A DNA stretch of 64,000 bases from the NCBI GenBank assembly GCA_009773805.1, contig WTXA01000001.1, positions 1 through 64,000 of the forward strand. The letters are read 5' to 3'. Shown here one piece after another: positions 24,774-46,983 of this stretch. Positions within the stretch are counted from its first letter, which is position 1; every line of letters begins with the position of its first letter. Source of the stretch: Fusobacteriota bacterium. GTDB taxonomy: Bacteria; Bacillota; TC1. The position numbers and the translations under genes are program-made. The notes under the pieces were generated by a model. That model did no database searches and was not told where the DNA came from. It saw only the letters and a list, made by a program, of their open reading frames with translations.

Positions 24774-25882
24774 TGAAAAAAAAGGTTCTAGTTGCTATGA
24801 GTGGTGGTGTAGATAGTGCTGTTACAGCACTTCTACTACAAAAGCAAGGATATGAAGTCGTGGGAGTAACTTGCCAAATATGGCTTAATGATATTTGTAA
24901 TATTGAATCGAGTAAATCCTGTTGTGGCAATGAAGCTATTGATGATGCTCGTTCAACCGCAAATCAACTTGGTATTAAACATTATGTTTTTAATTACAGA
25001 GATTTATTCAAAGATAAAGTTATAGATAATTTTTGCAATGAATATCTAGCAGGAAACACTCCGAATCCTTGCATGGATTGCAATCTCTATATAAGGTCTA
25101 TTGATTTACTAGATAAAGCAATATCCATGGGATTTGATTATCTGGCTACAGGACATTATGTGATAAATGAATATGATGAGAGTACTGCAGAGTATGTTTT
25201 GAGAAAAGGTATTGATCAAACAAAGGACCAAAGTTATTTTCTATATCAATTAAATCAAGATAAACTAAAACATTTGCTTTTCCCGTTAGGTAAATTGAAT
25301 AAAAGTGAAGTAAGAGAAATTGCTAATAAAAATAGTATACCAGTAGCCAACAAGAAAGAAAGTCAAGATATATGCTTTGTACCAGATGGTAATTATGGCA
25401 AGTTTATAGATGATTATAGAATAATGAGTGGAGAGCCAGCCCTTATTTATCATAAAAATGGTAAATATCTCGGGAAAGGAAAACCTAGCTACTATTACAC
25501 AATTGGGCAAAGACGAGGTATAGTTGTCGCTTATGGAACACCTGTATATGTTATTAAAATATTAAATTCTGAAAATAAAGTGATAGTTGGGGATGCAAAA
25601 GATGTCTATAATTATGGCTTGATTGCAAATTCTGCTTATTATATTTCAAATAAGAAAATAGAAGAGGGGACAGAGGTTCTAGTTAAGGTGAGATACAGAA
25701 GTAAACCAACAAAGGCTAAATATTATAGTACTGAAGATGGTTTTAAGCTTGTTTTTATTGAACCTACGTCTTCTGTAACAACAGGACAATCTGCAGTAAT
25801 ATACAGTTTTGAAAATCCAGATATAGTACTTGGTGGCGGTAGAATAATTAGTATATTGGATCAAGAACCTAAGGGGAATTAA
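24773..25882 (+). CDS. mnmA: tRNA-specific 2-thiouridylase MnmA
   Basis: Thiolates U34 of tRNA-Lys/Glu/Gln using a persulfide donor and ATP. 369 aa. PP-loop MSGGVDSAV at residues 8-16, catalytic Cys in NTPNPCMDCN near residue 104, second Cys in ESQDICFVPDG near residue 200, and C-terminal OB-like domain (SVTTGQSAVIYS). Both reactive cysteines are present. Overlaps the ppk1 stop and the next start by one base each, so it is in one polycistronic unit from cinA to xdhC. Confidence 0.95.
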   Translation: MKKKVLVAMSGGVDSAVTALLLQKQGYEVVGVTCQIWLNDICNIESSKSCCGNEAIDDARSTANQLGIKHYVFNYRDLFKDKVIDNFCNEYLAGNTPNPCMDCNLYIRSIDLLDKAISMGFDYLATGHYVINEYDESTAEYVLRKGIDQTKDQSYFLYQLNQDKLKHLLFPLGKLNKSEVREIANKNSIPVANKKESQDICFVPDGNYGKFIDDYRIMSGEPALIYHKNGKYLGKGKPSYYYTIGQRRGIVVAYGTPVYVIKILNSENKVIVGDAKDVYNYGLIANSAYYISNKKIEEGTEVLVKVRYRSKPTKAKYYSTEDGFKLVFIEPTSSVTTGQSAVIYSFENPDIVLGGGRIISILDQEPKGN

Positions 25883-27165
25883 TGAATAGTCAATTCATAA
25901 GAGAGCAAATAAAAGGTGGCCATATATATTGCTTTATTGGTGCAGGTGGAAAAACATCTGCTATCAAAGAGGCTGCAATTATATTGGCTGAAGAGGGATA
26001 TAGGGTGCTAATAACCACCACTACAAAAATCTCGGTAGAAGAGTTCTCTAAATATAGGATTGATTTCAGCAAGAGTATCAGCATAGATAATATGCAAGAT
26101 GGTATAAATATCCAAGTTTCAAGTGTAGTAGGGGGAAAATATCAAGGATATAAAAAAGAAGATATTGAAAATATTGTGCAAATACCGCTAGATGTTGTAA
26201 TATTAATCGAAGCAGATGGTTCAAGAGGTCTTCCTTTTAAGGTGCCTTATGAACATGAACCTGTGGTACCAGTCAATTCTACCAAAAACTTTCTATTTTT
26301 CTCTGCTAAAATAATGGGAGAAAAGATAAGTAGTGATAATACCTATAACCTAGAAAAAATACAAACAATAATAGGTGAAAAGGATATGCTATATACAAAT
26401 GAAAATATCCTGAAATTGCTTAATGAAGGTTGGATTAGGGATACTAAATATAGGAATTTAAAGGTTATTATCAATCAAGGTGAGATATTAAAAAATACTT
26501 TTATTGCTAAGGATTTATTGAAACAAATTTATGATCAGTATGGGATTGGGTCGTATTTAGTTTCTTTAAAAGAAAAGAAGATTTACCAATGTTACGATGA
26601 CAAGGTTGGTGTACTAATACTAGCTGCGGGTGAAGGTAGAAGAATGGGTCGCATAAAACAATTATTGAAGTTTGGCGGGTCTACATTCTTGGAAGAAACT
26701 ATAAAAAAATATAGTGCCTATAGCCAGGATATCATTGTTACACTTGGTTTTCATAAAGAAGAGATAAAGGGAAATATAAAAGAATTAGGTTTTAAGTTTC
26801 AGGAGATTAAGAAATATAAAGAAGGTATGAGTGCTTCATTTAGAGAAGCAAGAGCTTTTGATACTGACTTTTTTTTGGTGACACCATGTGATTTACCTTT
26901 AGTTGAAGACTATACAATAGAAATTCTTCTAAAGACTTATAGGGATAAAAAAGGTGAAATAATTGTGCCAAGATATATGGGTGTAAAAGGTCATCCAGTT
27001 GTTTTTCCGATAGCACTTCAAAGTAGTTTTAAAAATATCAATGGAGATATTGGAGCAAGAGACATTATCAAGGAGATGGGGTGCGTTTATGTGGATCTAG
27101 ATGATCCTGGCATAATTGCAGATATAGATACCTTGAATGAATATTTGAAAATCAAGGAGGAGTAG
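25882..27165 (+). CDS. YqeC-MocA fusion: selenium-dependent hydroxylase accessory and molybdopterin nucleotidyltransferase
   Basis: 427 aa, two domains. Residues 1-235 match YqeC: the P-loop-like IGAGGKTS, TTTTKI, and LIEADGSRGLPFKVPYEHEPVVP. YqeC proteins occur with selenium-dependent molybdenum hydroxylases. Residues ~241-427 match MocA/MobA-type NTP transferases (LAAGEGRRMGRIKQLLKFGG, TPCDLPLV, VPRYMGVKGHPVVF), which make the molybdopterin cytosine dinucleotide used by xanthine-dehydrogenase-like enzymes. The fusion puts cofactor finishing and the selenium accessory in one chain. One-base overlap with mnmA; yqeB follows after 1 bp. Confidence 0.87.
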   Translation: MNSQFIREQIKGGHIYCFIGAGGKTSAIKEAAIILAEEGYRVLITTTTKISVEEFSKYRIDFSKSISIDNMQDGINIQVSSVVGGKYQGYKKEDIENIVQIPLDVVILIEADGSRGLPFKVPYEHEPVVPVNSTKNFLFFSAKIMGEKISSDNTYNLEKIQTIIGEKDMLYTNENILKLLNEGWIRDTKYRNLKVIINQGEILKNTFIAKDLLKQIYDQYGIGSYLVSLKEKKIYQCYDDKVGVLILAAGEGRRMGRIKQLLKFGGSTFLEETIKKYSAYSQDIIVTLGFHKEEIKGNIKELGFKFQEIKKYKEGMSASFREARAFDTDFFLVTPCDLPLVEDYTIEILLKTYRDKKGEIIVPRYMGVKGHPVVFPIALQSSFKNINGDIGARDIIKEMGCVYVDLDDPGIIADIDTLNEYLKIKEE

Positions 27166-27166
27166 T

Positions 27167-27982
27167 ATGGTTAAAGTACTAATTAAAGGAGCTGGAGATT
27201 TAGCAAGTGGTGTTGCTATGGCATTTCATAAGAGCGGTTTTCAAGTTCTTATGACTGAAGTAGAGCAGCCTACTGTGATAAGAAGAAGTGTTGCCTTTGC
27301 TAATTCTATTTATGAAGCAAAAATGGAGATTGAAGGAGTAACAGGTATTCATGTTACTGAAGAAAACTATGCGGATTACCTAGAAAAGGGCAATATTGGT
27401 ATTATAATTGACCCTGTTGGAGCGATAAAAGATAAATATAAACCAGATGTTATAGTTGATGCTATTTTAGCGAAGAAGAATCTAGGTACAAAAATAAATA
27501 ATGCATCGATAGTTATAGGTTGTGGGCCAGGTTTTATTGCAGGTGAAGATTGTCATTTAGTTATTGAAACTAAACGTGGTCATTATTTGGGAAAGATTAT
27601 AGAAAAGGGCTCAGCTATTAAAAATAGTGGCGTTCCTGGTATTGTAGAAGGTCGAGGTTTAGAAAGAGTTCTATATTCTCCTGTAGCAGGAAAGGTAGAA
27701 CATTTAAAAAAGCTTGGAGATATTGTTGAACAAAATGATATAATATTAAAGGTTGATGGTATTCCTGTAAAGAGTCCTTTTAAAGGAGTTTTACGTGGCC
27801 TAATTGTAGAAGGCATGTTAGTTCCTGAAAATATGAAAATTGGGGATGTTGATCCACGTTTATTTCCTGAATATTGTTTTACTATTTCAGAAAAAGCAAA
27901 GGCTATAGGTAGAGCAGCTGTGGAAGGAACTTTAATTTTAGGTAAAGAAAAAGGTTTGTTTGGAGTAATGAAGTATGAATAA
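27167..27982 (+). CDS. yqeB: selenium-dependent molybdenum hydroxylase accessory protein YqeB
   Basis: 271 aa of the EF2563/YqeB family, with the characteristic start VLIKGAGDLASGVAMAFHKSGFQVLMTE (a Rossmann-like fold), EVEQPTVIRRSVAFANSIYE, and PGIVEGRGLERVLYSP. The C-terminal half contains a biotinyl/lipoyl-like beta segment (SPVAGKVEHLKKLGDIVEQNDIILKVDG). Genomic co-occurrence in the literature ties it to labile-selenium molybdenum hydroxylases; its reaction is not known. RBS AAGGAGGAG; overlaps xdhC by 8 bp. Confidence 0.87.
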   Translation: MVKVLIKGAGDLASGVAMAFHKSGFQVLMTEVEQPTVIRRSVAFANSIYEAKMEIEGVTGIHVTEENYADYLEKGNIGIIIDPVGAIKDKYKPDVIVDAILAKKNLGTKINNASIVIGCGPGFIAGEDCHLVIETKRGHYLGKIIEKGSAIKNSGVPGIVEGRGLERVLYSPVAGKVEHLKKLGDIVEQNDIILKVDGIPVKSPFKGVLRGLIVEGMLVPENMKIGDVDPRLFPEYCFTISEKAKAIGRAAVEGTLILGKEKGLFGVMKYE

Positions 27983-28910
27983 AAAAATACTAGAAACCAT
28001 TAGAGATTTGAGTGAAGAAATGGTTTTAGTAACGATAATTGATACCAGAGGATCAGCACCAAGACATGCTGGGAGTAAGATGCTAGTTACAAAAAGTGGT
28101 ATAATAGAAGGAACTGTTGGAGGGGGCCCTGGTGAATATGAAAGTATGTTAGAAGCCCAAAAAATATTAAAAAACAAAAAATTCCTTCTTATGAATATTA
28201 CTAGATTAGGTGATAATCCAAAAGATTTATTGATGATTTGTGGTGGAATTAACCAACTAATGTTACAGTATATTGACAATCAAGCACGGGAAACTTTGTT
28301 AAAAACCTTGGAATTAAATAATAAGGGATATATTACAAAATTAAGAACTAACTTAGCTAATGGTCAAATTGATATTGTTGAATTAGATGAAAAAGATGAA
28401 GAGGGATATTTTTACGATATTATTGAACCTATGAATAATTTACTTATTTTAGGTGGAGGTTATGTAGGTTATGCAATATATGAATTAGCTGATATACTTG
28501 GATTTGAAGTTACAATATTTGATGATAGACCTGAGTTTGCAAATAAAAAAAGATTTCCTAAGGCAGTTGGTTTAGGAGCTGGTGATTTTAGCAACATGTT
28601 AAATACCTATAATTTTAATAGTTATACATATGTGACAGTTGTAACAAGGGGTCATCTACAAGATGCCGAATGTGTTAAGGGTGTAATTAAAAAAGAAAAC
28701 AAATATATAGGTTTAATTGGCAGTAAAAGGAAAATTAGTCTTATTTTTGAAGATTTGAAAGAATCAGGATATAGTCAGGAAGAAATAAATAAACTTCATG
28801 CACCTGTTGGTTTAGATATAGGTGCGGAAACACCAGAAGAAATAGCTGTATCGATTATGGCTGAAATAATTGGAGTAAAATATGGGAAGAAGATCACAAA
28901 GCACAAGTAG
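27975..28910 (+). CDS. xdhC: XdhC family molybdenum-hydroxylase maturation factor
   Basis: 311 aa. N-terminal XdhC/CoxI domain (VTIIDTRGSAPRHAGSKMLV, GTVGGGPGEYE) and C-terminal Rossmann domain (LLILGGGYVGYAIYELADILGFEVTIFDDRPEF, GLIGSKRK, GLDIGAETPEEIAVSIMAEI). XdhC-type chaperones bind the cofactor, add the terminal sulfur (or here possibly selenium) and insert it into xanthine dehydrogenase-like enzymes. No hydroxylase structural genes lie in the window. Starts 8 bp inside yqeB; the next gene starts inside its end. Confidence 0.9.
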   Translation: MNKKILETIRDLSEEMVLVTIIDTRGSAPRHAGSKMLVTKSGIIEGTVGGGPGEYESMLEAQKILKNKKFLLMNITRLGDNPKDLLMICGGINQLMLQYIDNQARETLLKTLELNNKGYITKLRTNLANGQIDIVELDEKDEEGYFYDIIEPMNNLLILGGGYVGYAIYELADILGFEVTIFDDRPEFANKKRFPKAVGLGAGDFSNMLNTYNFNSYTYVTVVTRGHLQDAECVKGVIKKENKYIGLIGSKRKISLIFEDLKESGYSQEEINKLHAPVGLDIGAETPEEIAVSIMAEIIGVKYGKKITKHK

Positions 28911-29679
28911 AAGAAATCGAACACCTAAGAAGAGAAAAAAACATAGCATTAAAGCGCTATTATCTATAATACTCTTAATTTTATTTGGAGTATGGTTTAT
29001 GATAGAAATTGTTGAAAGTGAAGCTACTTCTGTAGCCAAAGTAGAAAATGAAGAAGTAGACCAAATTATTCAAGCTGAAGGTGCTGATTTAGATATAATA
29101 GAGGATAACGGCTATATAATAAAGCCTAATTTTAGAGAACCAACTAAAGGAATAATAATTTATGCAAATGGTGGAGTATCACCAAAGTCATATATACCTC
29201 TTAGTATTATATTAGCAAAAAAAGGTTATCAAGTTGTCATTCCAGAATTTTTATTTAATAGCCCCAACATAGGTAGTAATACAATGAATACTATTATTAA
29301 AGATAATGATAACATACAGTTATGGACTGTAGTAGGTCATGGTAGAGGAGGAGAGGCTATGTCGGTAAACTTAAAAGCTGATGAAAAAATCAAAGGAGCA
29401 GTTTTCTTGGCATCTTATCCAAGTGAAGGAGCAGATTTAAGTAAGAGTGGACTAAAAGTTGCATCGATAAAAGGAACTCTTGATAAAACACTAGATTTAG
29501 AATTGTATGAAGATCGTAAAAAACAATTACCAGAAAATACAATGTTTGTACAAATAGAAAATGGAAATTTTTCATACTTTGCTAATTATGAAAATGATAC
29601 AATGGCTGAAATAAGTAAATTGGAACAACAAATACAAACATCGGTTCAAATACTTAATTTAATGGATCAAATCAAATAG
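28882..29679 (+). CDS. membrane-anchored alpha/beta-hydrolase-fold protein lacking catalytic residues
   Basis: 265 aa: basic N-terminus (SQSTSRRNRTPKKRKKH), one membrane segment at about residues 26-40, then an extracytoplasmic alpha/beta-hydrolase domain. The nucleophile elbow reads GHGRGGEAM (residues 152-160), so Gly154 stands where the Ser of GHSxGG belongs. The C-terminal family motif GNHxxF reads GNFSYF, so the catalytic His is Phe230. Both codons are unambiguous (GGT, TTT) and the frame is otherwise intact, so this is a pseudoenzyme or it uses other residues. It overlaps xdhC by 29 bp. Role unknown; possibly binding or structural. Confidence 0.8.
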   Translation: MGRRSQSTSRRNRTPKKRKKHSIKALLSIILLILFGVWFMIEIVESEATSVAKVENEEVDQIIQAEGADLDIIEDNGYIIKPNFREPTKGIIIYANGGVSPKSYIPLSIILAKKGYQVVIPEFLFNSPNIGSNTMNTIIKDNDNIQLWTVVGHGRGGEAMSVNLKADEKIKGAVFLASYPSEGADLSKSGLKVASIKGTLDKTLDLELYEDRKKQLPENTMFVQIENGNFSYFANYENDTMAEISKLEQQIQTSVQILNLMDQIK

Positions 29680-29722
29680 TGTTTAGGAAAAGTTTAATGA
29701 TATAATTGGATGGGAGAAAAAC

Positions 29723-30733
29723 TTGGATAGTATTATACTAGGAATAGAAACAAGCTGTGATGAAACTTCAGTAGCAGTTGTGAAAAACGGTAAGGATGTA
29801 CTTTCTAACGTTATTTCATCACAAATAGAAATACATAAAAAATACGGTGGTGTTGTTCCTGAGGTAGCCTCAAGAAAACATCTTGAAATGATAATTGAAG
29901 TCATAGATATTGCAATAAAAGAAGCTGGTATAGACAAAAAGGAATTAACGGCAATTGGAGTTACCAATCAACCAGGTCTTATTGGAGCACTTATAGTGGG
30001 AATAACAGCAGCTAAGGGTTTAAGTATAAGTTTGGATATACCAATAATTCCTGTTCATCACCTAAGAGGTCATATTTATGCAAATCTGATAGAACATGAA
30101 CTTAATGAATTCCCTGTTTTAGCTTTAATAGTTTCAGGTGGTCATACTTCACTCGCTATTTGGCATAGTCATCTTGATATTGAAGTAATTGGTCAGACTC
30201 TAGATGATGCTGCAGGTGAAGCTTTTGATAAGATTGCCAGGAAATTGGGATTAGATTATCCAGGTGGGCCTTTGATTGAGAAGTATGCCAGATCTGGATC
30301 ACGTACAAATCTTGTATTTCCGGTAGCCAAGTTAGGTAAGGATAACTATAATTTCAGTTTTAGTGGACTAAAGTCAAATGTGATCAATTATCTTAATAAA
30401 ATGAAAGCACAAGGTAATGAAATTATAGTGGAAGATGTTTCATTTGCTGTCCAAGATGCTATCACTTCAGCAGTTATTGAAAAAGTACTGCTTGCAAGTA
30501 ATAATTATGGAATTAAGAAAGTCGTACTAGGTGGAGGAGTTACCTCTAATAAATATCTTGTTGCTAAATTAGAAGAAAAGGGCCAAAAAATTGGCCTTGA
30601 AGTTTACTATCCAAAGGGAATTTTATGTACTGATAATGGGGTTATGATAGGTAGTGCAGCATATTATTTGAGTCAATATGGAATAAAGGGTGACTTATTT
30701 CTAAATGCTTATTCCAGTGGAAATATTAAATAG
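29723..30733 (+). CDS. tsaD: tRNA N6-adenosine threonylcarbamoyltransferase TsaD
   Basis: Final enzyme of t6A37 tRNA modification, working with TsaB and TsaE, which are not in the window. 336 aa. Iron/zinc-binding His pair in PVHHLRGHIYAN near residues 110-121, N-terminal LGIETSCDETSVAVV, and phosphate loop VSGGHTSL. Start codon TTG at 29723, supported by GGGAG at 29712-29716 and by the family N-terminus. TATAAT at 29701-29706 suggests a new promoter here. A dyad of DnaA-box-like sequences begins at the base after the stop. Confidence 0.95.
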   Translation: MDSIILGIETSCDETSVAVVKNGKDVLSNVISSQIEIHKKYGGVVPEVASRKHLEMIIEVIDIAIKEAGIDKKELTAIGVTNQPGLIGALIVGITAAKGLSISLDIPIIPVHHLRGHIYANLIEHELNEFPVLALIVSGGHTSLAIWHSHLDIEVIGQTLDDAAGEAFDKIARKLGLDYPGGPLIEKYARSGSRTNLVFPVAKLGKDNYNFSFSGLKSNVINYLNKMKAQGNEIIVEDVSFAVQDAITSAVIEKVLLASNNYGIKKVVLGGGVTSNKYLVAKLEEKGQKIGLEVYYPKGILCTDNGVMIGSAAYYLSQYGIKGDLFLNAYSSGNIK

Positions 30734-30787
30734 TTATCCACAATATCCACAATATAATAAGTTGATGTATGTGGAAACTGTGGATTA
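30734..30787. promoter_or_regulatory. dyad of four DnaA-box-like 9-mers
   Basis: Two abutting 9-mers on the plus strand, TTATCCACA (30734-30742, the perfect consensus) and ATATCCACA (30743-30751), face two abutting 9-mers on the minus strand: 30770-30778 reads GTTTCCACA and 30779-30787 reads TAATCCACA. All four keep the TCCACA core. The 54-bp dyad fills the gap between tsaD and the next gene. A transcript could also fold here, but no T run follows. A DnaA-binding cluster is the simplest reading; it is not oriC because dnaA, dnaN and rpmH are absent. Confidence 0.65.
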
Positions 30788-30808
30788 AATTGCTAAAAAG
30801 GAGCTATT

Positions 30809-31360
30809 TTGAGTTTGAAGAATAAACATACAGAAACTAAAATTGAAAAGAATAATAAGAATACTAAAAAAAATATAGAAGTAAAAAACACTGAAAAGAC
30901 TAATAAGGCTAATAAGACTAAAAAGTCAAAGTTAGGATTCTATTTTAAAGTAGTGATTTTTATTGTCTTGGGAGTTTTCTTATATTTTGCAGTGGCAAGC
31001 ACGAGTAATTCTTATAAAGGTAGTGTTTTCCAAAGAATTGATATTTTGAAGCAAAATAAGGTGCCTTATCTTGTTGTTATAAGGGATGACTTTTCACCTG
31101 TAAGTATTGAAAATAAAAAAAATATTGACAGTATAATTAAAAAGGCTGGTGAAAGTGTAACTGTTTTTGACCTTGCCTATAATCCGAAAGATATTAGCAA
31201 GGAATCAAAGTACTTCTTAGATAAATTTGATATTGAAAATTTACCTGTAGTCATTTTATGTGATGAAAAAGGAGATTTAATAAAGTCCTATTATTTACCT
31301 TTAAATGAAAAACAAATAATAGGAAGCGTTGAAAAGGCGAGAGAAAGCAGTGTGGATTAA
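30809..31360 (+). CDS. membrane-anchored thioredoxin-fold-like protein, unknown function
   Basis: 183 aa starting with TTG (AAGGAG about 6 bases upstream). Residues 1-44 are a highly charged Lys/Asn/Thr-rich cytoplasmic tail, residues ~45-65 a membrane helix (FYFKVVIFIVLGVFLYFAVA), and the rest is extracytoplasmic. The external part has the look of a thioredoxin fold: VPYLVVIRDDF, then VTVFDLAYN, then FDIENLPVVILCDEKGDLI with the cis-Pro position, but there is no CxxC. It therefore should not be a disulfide oxidoreductase. Overlaps the moaA start by one base. I do not recognise a named family. Confidence 0.6.
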   Translation: MSLKNKHTETKIEKNNKNTKKNIEVKNTEKTNKANKTKKSKLGFYFKVVIFIVLGVFLYFAVASTSNSYKGSVFQRIDILKQNKVPYLVVIRDDFSPVSIENKKNIDSIIKKAGESVTVFDLAYNPKDISKESKYFLDKFDIENLPVVILCDEKGDLIKSYYLPLNEKQIIGSVEKARESSVD

Positions 31361-32322
31361 TGAGAACTATTGACTATATAAGAATATCTGTCACTGACAG
31401 ATGTAATTTAAGGTGTGTCTATTGTATGCCAGAAAATGGTGTAGATTTATTAAAACATCAAGACATGATGAGTTTCGAGGAAATCTATAACCTGATATTG
31501 GCATTAGTACCTGCAGGAATTAAGAAAATCAGGTTGACTGGAGGAGAGCCTCTTGTAAGAAATGGCATTGAAAAGCTAATAAAAATGCTTAGAAGCATAC
31601 CTGAAATAGAGGATATAACCTTAACTACAAATGGAATTTTATTAGAGGAAATGGCAGAGGGCCTAAAGGCTGCTGGTCTATCTAGAATCAATGTTAGTCT
31701 TGATTCACTAGATGAAATTCGATTTAAACAAATAACTAGATGGGGAAGCTTGGAAAAGGTTCTGAAGGGAATAGATAAAGCCATTGATATTGGTCTAAAG
31801 CCTGTTAAAATAAATGTTGTAGCTATTAAAGGTTTCAATGACGACGAGTTTATTAATTTTGTTGAATATGCCTATAAAAAGGAAGTTCAAGTAAGGTTCA
31901 TTGAACTTATGCCAATTGGTGAAAGTGATGATGAAGCTATCTTGAAACATTATCCTATAGCAGACATCAAGGAATTAATAGAAACTAAGTTTCAGCTTGA
32001 AGAGACAAGTGATATAAAAACTAATGGACCAGCAGAAAACTATAGGATTATTGGTGGTAAGGGTAGTGTTGGCTTTATAGGAGCTTTATCTCATAAATTC
32101 TGTAGTACCTGTAATAGGCTCAGACTTACTGCTGATGGCAGAATTAGACCATGTCTATATATAGACAAAGAATATGATGTCTTAAAACTTATTAGGGACG
32201 AAGCTAGTCCTGATGAATTGAGAGCTTTTGTTGAAGAAATAATTTTAGGTAAACCAGAGGGACATAACATGGAAGATGGTTGGGGTAACCAACGTAGAAA
32301 AATGTCTCAAATAGGGGGTTAA
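31360..32322 (+). CDS. moaA: GTP 3',8-cyclase MoaA
   Basis: Radical-SAM enzyme that begins molybdopterin synthesis from GTP. 320 aa. SAM cluster Cys15/Cys19/Cys22 (DRCNLRCVYCMP), and C-terminal cluster motif HKFCSTCNRLRLTADGRIRPCLY. The chain ends in Gly-Gly, the C-terminal pair known to be needed for activity. Followed in the same unit by moaC, a MOSC gene and mogA with spacings of 1, -1 and -14 bp; moaD, moaE and moeA are not in the window. Confidence 0.95.
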   Translation: MRTIDYIRISVTDRCNLRCVYCMPENGVDLLKHQDMMSFEEIYNLILALVPAGIKKIRLTGGEPLVRNGIEKLIKMLRSIPEIEDITLTTNGILLEEMAEGLKAAGLSRINVSLDSLDEIRFKQITRWGSLEKVLKGIDKAIDIGLKPVKINVVAIKGFNDDEFINFVEYAYKKEVQVRFIELMPIGESDDEAILKHYPIADIKELIETKFQLEETSDIKTNGPAENYRIIGGKGSVGFIGALSHKFCSTCNRLRLTADGRIRPCLYIDKEYDVLKLIRDEASPDELRAFVEEIILGKPEGHNMEDGWGNQRRKMSQIGG

Positions 32323-32323
32323 A

Positions 32324-32803
32324 ATGGAATTTACTCATTTAGATGAACAAGGTAAGGCCAAGATGGTCGATGTTGGGGGTAAGGATGTAACAACTAGAAC
32401 GGCTTTTGCAACTGGAAAAATCATTCTACCAACAAAAATATTGGAGGCTATCCTAGATAATAGTGTACCTAAGGGTGATGTTTTTAGTGTAGCTAGAGTA
32501 GCTGGTATAATGGGGGCTAAGAATACCGCAAGCCTTATTCCCATGTGTCACCCATTACTTATAAATAGTTGTTCAGTTGATTTTAAAATTGACAAAGAAA
32601 ATTCTTTAATAGAAGCAATATGCACAGTCAGAGTCGATGGGAAGACAGGAGTGGAAATGGAGGCCTTAACTGGTGTTTCCATAGCTCTATTGACTATTTA
32701 TGACATGTGTAAGGGTATCGACAAAGGTATGACTATAACAGATATATTATTAGAAAAAAAGACGGGCGGCAAGTCTGGTATATATGAAAGGAGCAAGTTA
32801 TAA
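32324..32803 (+). CDS. moaC: cyclic pyranopterin monophosphate synthase MoaC
   Basis: Converts the MoaA product to cyclic pyranopterin monophosphate. 159 aa, full length. Family segments FTHLDEQGKAKMVDVGGKDVTTRTA, LIPMCHPL and GKTGVEMEALTGVSIALLTIYDMCK are all present. RBS GGGGGT within the moaA end. Stop overlaps the next ATG by one base. Confidence 0.96.
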   Translation: MEFTHLDEQGKAKMVDVGGKDVTTRTAFATGKIILPTKILEAILDNSVPKGDVFSVARVAGIMGAKNTASLIPMCHPLLINSCSVDFKIDKENSLIEAICTVRVDGKTGVEMEALTGVSIALLTIYDMCKGIDKGMTITDILLEKKTGGKSGIYERSKL

Positions 32804-33240
32804 TGGCAAAAGTTTTAGCTGTTTGTATAAGCCTTAAAAAAGGTGAACAAAAGAAAGAAATAGATTTTGGAGAGTGTGTTGTAGATTTTGGTATTAAGGG
32901 TGATGCTCATGGTGGCGACTGGCACAGACAAATAAGTTTACTAGCTAAGGAAAGTGTCGATGAAATGAGAGCTAGAGGTATAACTTTAATTAATGGAGAT
33001 TTTGCTGAAAATATTGTAACTGAAGGAATTAATCTAAAGATATTGCCAATTGGTTCTAGATTGTTGATAGGTAATGATGTTGTCTTGGAAGTTACTCAAA
33101 TAGGCAAAGAGTGTCATTCTGGCTGTGTAATTATGCAGAAAGCTGGTAAATGTGTGATGCCAACTGATGGAATTTTTGCAAAAGTTATAAATCCTGGTAA
33201 TATAAGGGCTGAAGATGAGATTGTGATTGAATATGTTTAG
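32803..33240 (+). CDS. MOSC domain protein
   Basis: 145-residue stand-alone MOSC domain, with the conserved Cys in IGKECHSGCVIMQKAGKC, plus VVDFGIKGDAHGGDWHRQISLLA. MOSC domains bind molybdenum cofactor and can carry sulfur; single-domain forms are often found inside Moco clusters, sometimes fused to MoaB. Here the gene overlaps mogA/moaB by 14 bp. Likely in cofactor sulfuration or delivery (inference). Confidence 0.85.
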   Translation: MAKVLAVCISLKKGEQKKEIDFGECVVDFGIKGDAHGGDWHRQISLLAKESVDEMRARGITLINGDFAENIVTEGINLKILPIGSRLLIGNDVVLEVTQIGKECHSGCVIMQKAGKCVMPTDGIFAKVINPGNIRAEDEIVIEYV

Positions 33241-33727
33241 AATTGGTATTTTAACTGCAAGTGATGCAGGATCTAGAGGAGAACGTGAAGATTTAAGCAG
33301 TAAAGTTATAATGGATATGATAACGTCCATAGGTGAGGTTGTTGAGTACATAATGGTTCCTGATAATAGGGATGATATTTCAGCGGTGTTGAAGTTATGG
33401 GCTGATGAATTGAAATTGGATTTAATACTAACTACTGGGGGAACAGGTTTTTCTCCAAGGGACATAACCCCTGAAGCCACATTGGATATAGTGGAAAGAC
33501 AAGTACCTGGTATACCAGAAGCACTTAGGGCTATGAGTTATCAAAAGACTAATAGAGCAATGCTTTCTAGAGGAACTGCTGGCATCAGAGGAGCTACCTT
33601 GATTGTCAATATGCCTGGAAGTCCTATTGCTTGTAGAGAATATATGGAATTCTTGTTACCAGTACTTAGTCATGGACTTGAGATTTTAACGGGTAAAGCT
33701 GCAAACTGTGCCAGGCCAGAGAAATAA
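33227..33727 (+). CDS. mogA: molybdopterin adenylyltransferase, MogA/MoaB family
   Basis: 166 aa. Adenylates molybdopterin before metal insertion. Motifs: GILTASDAGSRGEREDLS at the N-terminus, TTGGTGFSPRDITPEAT near residues 68-84, and NMPGSPIACREYMEFLLPVL. Sequence alone does not separate MogA from MoaB, which share the fold. Last gene of the moaA-moaC-MOSC unit. Confidence 0.87.
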   Translation: MNMFRIGILTASDAGSRGEREDLSSKVIMDMITSIGEVVEYIMVPDNRDDISAVLKLWADELKLDLILTTGGTGFSPRDITPEATLDIVERQVPGIPEALRAMSYQKTNRAMLSRGTAGIRGATLIVNMPGSPIACREYMEFLLPVLSHGLEILTGKAANCARPEK

Positions 33728-46136: not shown

Positions 46137-46983
46137 AATTAGCACTGCATCCTGAACAACCTGATTTTTCCTCAACTTTGGCTACAACTTTAACAATATT
46201 GTTCTTTTCATAGACTAGGATCGCATGTGTAGGACAAACTTCTGCACATGCTCTACAGTTAGTGCATTTTGTATAGTCAATAACTGCAACACCACCAACA
46301 TGAATAGCATCAAAATTACATGCTTTTTCACATTTTTTACATTTTATACAGGCAACTTTACAAGATGAAATTGCATTTTTCCCTTTATCAGTATTATTGC
46401 AATTTACAAGAACTTTTTGGTCTTGTGGTATTAATTCCATCAAAAATTGAGGACAAGCCTTTACACAAATACCACAAGCTGTGCACTTCTTTGCATTCAC
46501 TTTTGGTAAACCGTTAACCATTTCAATAGCATCAAAGGGACAACTTACAGCACACGTTCCTAAGCCGAAACAACCAAAGTCACAAAGCTTCATACCACTG
46601 AATGAATTTTTAGCCAACAAACATGACTTTGCACCACTATATTCATATATTGCTTTGGCGTTATCAGCACCGTTACATTTTACTCTAGCTACAAGTGGTT
46701 TTTGGTCGCTATTAGCTTCAATTCCCATTATACCAGCGATTGCTATAGCTGTTGGTGATCCACCAACAGGGCAGCTATTTACTGGAGCCTTACCTTCAAA
46801 AATTGCTTTACCACAGCCGGAACATCCTGGATATCCACAGGCTCCACAGTTTGCACCAGGTAAAGCTTCAATAATTTCTTCAAGTTTTGGATCTGTTTCA
46901 ACATGAAATTTGACACTTGCAAAAGTAAGAATAGCACCAAGTAATAAACCTAGTATTAAAAAGATTATAAGAGTTTCTAACAT
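46126..46983 (-). CDS. rnfB: Rnf complex subunit RnfB
   Basis: Iron-sulfur subunit that accepts electrons from ferredoxin. 285 aa. N-terminal membrane helix (residues 4-22), Fes-type 4Fe-4S site Cys46/49/54 with CGACGYPGCSGCG, and then several ferredoxin-type sites: CDFGCFGLGTCAVSCP, CTACGICVKACP, CIKCKKCEKACN and CTNCRACAEVCP. Odd: the C-terminus adds a Cys-rich tail, GCSGCSANCER. Last of the six rnf genes, overlapping apbE. Confidence 0.95.
   Translation of the reverse strand: MLETLIIFLILGLLLGAILTFASVKFHVETDPKLEEIIEALPGANCGACGYPGCSGCGKAIFEGKAPVNSCPVGGSPTAIAIAGIMGIEANSDQKPLVARVKCNGADNAKAIYEYSGAKSCLLAKNSFSGMKLCDFGCFGLGTCAVSCPFDAIEMVNGLPKVNAKKCTACGICVKACPQFLMELIPQDQKVLVNCNNTDKGKNAISSCKVACIKCKKCEKACNFDAIHVGGVAVIDYTKCTNCRACAEVCPTHAILVYEKNNIVKVVAKVEEKSGCSGCSANCER

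Follow-up and report, generated by a model that had tools for sequence, protein, structure and literature searches.

Groups of DnaA boxes that lie away from the replication origin are well described in Bacillus subtilis and Escherichia coli, and the question they raise is whether such clusters are conserved devices or accidents of individual species. In B. subtilis, the region designated "downstream of gcp; downstream of ydiF" is among those bound most strongly by DnaA in vitro; it contains 10 sites, has an apparent Kd for DnaA of 0.15 µM with ATP and 0.33 µM with ADP, and shows a 16-fold preference for ATP at 55 nM (PMC4447404). A further strong DnaA region is located upstream of ywlC (PMC4447404). 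The B. subtilis clusters are described as oriC-proximal, with the gcp site at 0.63 Mb of 4.2 Mb; this proximity is frequent among them but does not define them. Deletion of six off-origin clusters results in early initiation, according to two papers that cite Okumura 2012 for this result (PMC5295017; PMC13220808). Several B. subtilis genes are also under DnaA control from clusters of this kind, but the eight gene sets given as directly DnaA-regulated do not include gcp/ydiF (PMC8203912); Hda, IHF, datA, and DARS are absent from this bacterium (PMC13220808).

The gcp gene is the orthologue of tsaD. In E. coli, the off-origin DnaA-box groups that affect initiation are datA, DARS1, and DARS2. Conservation of the gcp site among Bacillus species was reportedly suggested as early as 2007, by Ishikawa. 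The ywlC gene is tsaC, and two of the few B. subtilis clusters are found beside genes of the t6A tRNA pathway (ywlC and gcp), which is possibly more than coincidence. The preliminary description of the locus presented here had stated, correctly, that B. subtilis has a DnaA-binding cluster beside gcp (PMC4447404).

Four DnaA-box-like sites directly after tsaD

The window, which is the whole stretch of 64,000 nucleotides that was analysed, carries on its + strand the tsaD (gcp) gene for the tRNA threonylcarbamoyladenosine transferase subunit (29723–30733; TIGR03723, 409 bits with a cut-off of 296; PF00814). The TAG stop codon of tsaD occupies 30731–30733, and a 54-bp element begins at the very next base (30734–30787), consisting of four DnaA-box-like 9-mers with a TCCACA core, two on the + strand and two on the − strand, in a 9+9+18+9+9 dyad. 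The preliminary description had reported precisely this arrangement, including a single perfect consensus copy, and its reading is exact. Box 1 (30734–30742, + strand) is the perfect consensus TTATCCACA; box 2 (30743–30751, + strand) is the inner, weaker ATATCCACA; an 18-bp spacer follows (30752–30769); box 3 (30770–30778, − strand), also inner, is GTTTCCACA on its own strand and reads TGTGGAAAC on the + strand; and box 4 (30779–30787, − strand), the second outer box, is TAATCCACA on its own strand and reads TGTGGATTA on the + strand. One box of the four is perfect, and the two outer boxes come nearer to the consensus than the two inner boxes.

The dyad ends 22 bp before the TTG start of the next gene (30809–31360), which has the same orientation as tsaD and encodes a small membrane-anchored protein that matched nothing in Pfam and NCBIfam searches. 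The membrane segment of this protein is at its N-terminus, and a similarly placed short open reading frame follows tsaD in the sister family as well. From a reading of the open reading frames alone, tsaD lies within a molybdenum cofactor/hydroxylase neighbourhood (25882–33727): genes for XdhC- and YqeB-like proteins precede it, and it is followed by moaA, moaC, and genes for a MOSC and a mogA-like protein, and then by groES-groEL.

The total number of TCCACA cores in the window is ordinary (29, shuffle mean 24.8), but their clustering is not. Among 400 dinucleotide-preserving shuffles of the window, the densest 54 bp held one core in 282 and two in 118, compared with the four observed, which bears out the earlier assertion that the clustering is far above expectation; abutting core pairs number three in the window, with a mean of 0.01 in these shuffles. 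Single sites that match TTATCCACA with at most one mismatch are at chance level in the window (22 vs. 23.2 expected), and single sites in the whole genome (1.68 Mb, four contigs) are at or below expectation, with 21 perfect copies of TTATCCACA vs. 36 of the reversed motif, and also 180 against 246; thus, clustering is the only informative property. Abutting TCCACAnnnTCCACA is present four times in the genome: in both halves of the dyad, in half of a second dyad (see below), and in one pair at window position 46834. The latter is a lone abutting TCCACA pair, TCCACAGGCTCCACA (46834–46848), that opens with ATATCCACA, a site differing from the consensus by a single mismatch.

The dyad is outside oriC. 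The dnaA gene lies on another contig (C2:453335–454669) with dnaN and recF adjoining and three perfect copies of TTATCCACA upstream, so that dnaA/dnaN and their boxes occupy about 452–455 kb of C2, and the preliminary statement that no replication-initiation gene is near the dyad stands. GC skew changes from negative to positive between 415 and 500 kb on C2 (origin) and switches back near 210–280 kb on C1, the contig of the dyad (terminus); it is positive throughout the window. The same 9-mer is thus present beside dnaA in this genome, as in bacterial origins generally, but the dyad has neither an adjacent dnaA or dnaN nor a GC-skew switch, and is in these respects unlike an oriC. If C2 and C1 are assumed to be joined, contig arithmetic and GC skew place tsaD well away from the origin in this genome, ~440–560 kb from oriC, or roughly 0.26–0.33 of the chromosome; the corresponding distance in 11 other genomes whose sequence starts at dnaA is 0.10–0.47 (median 0.17), a modest tendency toward origin proximity. 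The encoded DnaA is complete (TIGR00362, 527 bits) and carries the Bac_DnaA_C helix-turn-helix domain (PF08299, 107 bits); its recognition region, RRRSR...DHTTVMHA, includes the RRRSR and DHTT motifs and belongs to the usual type, which recognises TTWTNCACA; the same recognition-region argument has been made for DnaA of C. difficile (PMC7561715).

The dyad and its second copy within the class

Within the family, tsaD was recovered from five genomes, and the 54-bp geometry follows it in each of them (the present genome, G000, and G005, G004, G003, and G001). G004 and G005, which belong to the same genus, retain the full set of four boxes without any shift in position; in G003, box 2 is lost while boxes 1, 3, and 4 remain in register; and G001, from another genus with a tsaD that is 63% identical, has TTATCCACA-GAATACACA-18 bp-TGTGGATAC-TGTGGAAAA. 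Box 1 is identical in all five genomes (100% pairwise identity), boxes 3 and 4 are 87–89% identical, with box 4 of the relatives being TTATCCACA or TTTTCCACA, and box 2 is the least conserved box (56%); the spacer is conserved in length and not in sequence (mean pairwise identity 48%). The preliminary description had made conservation in relatives that retain tsaD synteny the test of its reading, and in these relatives both the 9-mers and their spacing are kept, with boxes found phylum-wide (see below).

A DNA search with the element returned one strong second copy, 77% identical, on the same contig outside the window (G000:C1:535230–535286). This twin dyad (C1:535231–535284; L033:5232–5285) has the same geometry and lies between a ComF-family gene (comFC) and hpf; read along its genes, it is TTATCCACA-ATATCAACA-18 bp-TGTGGAAAC-TGTGGATAA. 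At both loci the outer boxes are strong and the inner boxes weaker, the polarity relative to the genes is the same, and the dyad is placed between co-directional genes, with a gap to the next start codon of 22 bp at tsaD and ~24 bp at hpf. The comFC-hpf dyad is present in six of six family genomes, its place in G004 and G005 being assigned from flanking sequence only. A search of the 10 genomes of the class for the dyad pattern, with up to three mismatches allowed, gave two dyads each in G000, G001, G004, and G005 and a single dyad each in G002 and G003, whereas the reversed pattern, used as the control, matched in none of the 10. In the sister family (G006–G009; tsaD 52–56% identical), the gap after tsaD has TTATCCACA on the + strand and then at least one box on the − strand, the outermost boxes that match the consensus perfectly or nearly so being 26 to 36 bp apart, and convergent boxes with wider spacing are found about 110–235 bp before hpf. 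Both loci are conserved across the class, and the exact geometry is conserved across the family.

Two copies per genome that are 77% identical and of the same polarity could also be the trace of a dispersed mobile or REP-like repeat that carries TCCACA by chance. There are, however, just these two copies genome-wide, they are fixed at the same two orthologous loci in each family genome, and the DNA that separates the boxes shows no such conservation; a dispersed repeat is largely refuted by these observations, and we give it almost no credence.

Boxes after tsaD across the phylum

The phylum was sampled with 132 tsaD loci from as many genomes, some of them incomplete, in 71 families; these are the higher-scoring loci, as listed, of a sample that was drawn evenly, and a bias toward closer tsaD sequences is possible. 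Among the 132 listed loci, TTWTNCACA averages 2.0 per 250 bp downstream of tsaD vs. 0.076 upstream; at least one box is found downstream in 87 and upstream in 8, at least two boxes downstream in 73 and upstream in 2, and the downstream side has more boxes in 87 loci and the upstream side in 3. Counted by family, boxes are on average more numerous downstream in 44 of the 71 sampled families, upstream in 3, and on neither side in 24, and 27 have no box after tsaD. Even the lowest-scoring batch in the survey has a box in 11 of 20 loci. Box density in successive 50-bp bins after the tsaD stop codon is 0.61, 0.57, 0.42, 0.31, and 0.11, and reaches background by ~300 bp; in the first 112 loci, 1.91 boxes per 200 bp were observed after tsaD vs. 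0.055 in dinucleotide shuffles. In a separate set of named genomes, mostly from distant phyla or gut lineages, boxes are present in 7 of 77.

The region upstream of hpf served as a negative-control locus. It has 0.12 boxes per 300 bp in 26 genomes of the phylum outside the class, so that hpf is unsupported as a phylum-wide box site beyond the class; since this region is nearly box-free there, the signal at tsaD is not something that intergenic DNA of these genomes shows in general. A few close groups of TTWTNCACA were nevertheless met incidentally around hpf elsewhere in the phylum, about 520–610 bp upstream of hpf in L269 (G062), at −305/−296 in L272 (G112), and at −964/−955 in L256 (G038); these groups hint at further off-origin clusters.

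The architecture of the cluster after tsaD differs greatly between families. Outside the class, tandem direct repeats predominate: 188 of 214 boxes lie on one strand, the one opposite to tsaD, and the commonest spacing is 9 bp. These tandem arrays form no hairpin, which bears on the reading of the dyad as an mRNA hairpin (a terminator, stabiliser, or processing site) whose likeness to DnaA boxes is incidental. The dyad strand does fold better than its shuffles (z −3.8), and three pairs are changed on both sides, a number reached in 14 of 500 shuffles; however, the double changes in the outer helix also fit the W of TTWTNCACA, and the inner helix is interrupted at pairs 10:45 and 12:43 in 7 of 10 sequences and at pair 15:40 in 5 of 10. 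The terminator scan makes no call, there is no T-run after the dyad, and an Rfam search gave no family at cut-off. With a strand that can fold but broken inner pairs and no tail, the hairpin was rejected as very improbable.

Alternatively, DnaA bound to the dyads might regulate the genes on either side, by acting as a roadblock or repressor in the gap after tsaD and in the comFC-hpf gap, and so tie their expression to the replication state. This is what co-directional flanking genes, shared polarity, and short distances to the next start codon at both family dyads would lead one to expect, and it has precedent in the B. subtilis genes that DnaA regulates from such clusters (PMC8203912). The boxes before hpf in the sister family, at about 110–235 bp, are nevertheless far from such a position, and across the phylum the clusters track tsaD, with the next gene co-directional in 53 and convergent in 12 of the loci with at least two boxes (orientation assigned by a simple ORF heuristic). 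The B. subtilis site, moreover, is between two 3' ends, and gcp/ydiF is missing from the eight DnaA-regulated gene sets (PMC8203912). Because the position of the boxes follows tsaD while the orientation of the neighbour varies, titration or origin control is favoured over neighbour regulation as the functional reading; the latter is unlikely, though it keeps a noticeable share of the probability.

Proposed role and comparison with known clusters

What is directly established is that the boxes exist and are clustered, that their position and geometry are conserved, and that this genome has a canonical DnaA; the 54-bp element is very probably a DnaA binding site in this organism. The best explanation overall, and a probable one, is that the dyad is an off-origin DnaA-box cluster that would bind and buffer DnaA, like the clusters of B. 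subtilis. The strong outer boxes would take DnaA first, and the weaker abutting inner boxes would fill cooperatively with ATP-DnaA to give a symmetrical four-molecule complex; a spacer that is fixed in length but free in sequence is what contacts between proteins on the two halves of the dyad would fit. DnaA would in this way be held away from oriC, and the doubling of the dyad at fork passage would lower free DnaA; the tsaD dyad and its hpf twin, together with oriC, would help to set the level of free ATP-DnaA, such that early or repeated initiation is damped. This role, which has been shown collectively for six B. subtilis clusters, is more likely than not for the dyad, and a sink is also consistent with the variants across the phylum, in which several boxes are retained but their layout is not. 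Titration alone leaves unexplained why the place 3' of tsaD recurs in so many families.

That each genome has two copies of one fixed head-to-head arrangement speaks for a defined complex over a loose sink, and the cluster might thus alter the nucleotide state of DnaA, by datA-like hydrolysis or DARS-like reactivation, rather than merely store the protein. Such an activity is improbable: the systems known to act in this way are lacking in B. subtilis along with Hda and IHF (PMC13220808), our literature search found no nucleotide-exchange or hydrolysis activity for clusters of this kind, and the architecture is very different among families. The dyad resembles E. coli datA, DARS1, and DARS2 as an off-origin group of DnaA boxes; these sites, however, require IHF (DARS2 also Fis) and change the DnaA nucleotide state, and inspection of the family alignment by eye found no shared motif in the 18-bp spacer that would correspond to an IHF site.

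The recurrence of boxes at one address in 44 of the 71 families sampled and the exact geometry within one family argue for long-lasting selection, and this wide conservation raises the question of why tsaD is the address. A tentative possibility is that initiation control at the gap 3' of tsaD is ancestral to the Bacillota: a DnaA-box cluster that has stayed at one address since before the split between B. subtilis and the clostridial lineages, that is a functional counterpart of E. coli datA, and that in this class took the form of a compact four-box dyad, duplicated at hpf, and might act as a tetrameric switch or bridge. The natural variants (four-box dyads, tandem arrays, and absences) are available for study of how box number and layout set initiation timing, with the lineages that have no cluster as a natural comparison group. 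Our literature search found no paper that treats both DnaA boxes and tsaD, nor a description of the dyad geometry or of an extension of the site to this class or the clostridial side.

The closest known counterpart is the B. subtilis gcp/ydiF cluster. Here as there, grouped TTATNCACA-like boxes are found between genes and outside oriC, at the orthologous position directly 3' of gcp/tsaD, with several boxes in a short gap far from dnaA. The B. subtilis cluster, however, has its 10 sites between convergent genes, whereas the present element is a four-box, 54-bp, head-to-head dyad between co-directional genes and, unlike the gcp/ydiF system, has a second copy at comFC-hpf. The other B. subtilis clusters (sda/yqeG, ywlC, ywcI/vpr, yydA, and trmE/jag) are likewise off-origin boxes in intergenic gaps, but several of them are gene-regulating promoter regions, and none of the published Table 1 entries compared here is at hpf. 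Most strong intergenic B. subtilis regions have 7–12 boxes, compared with four here and four at trmE/jag. The kind of site is thus already known from B. subtilis, and what is new is the dyad geometry and the unexpectedly wide conservation of its address.
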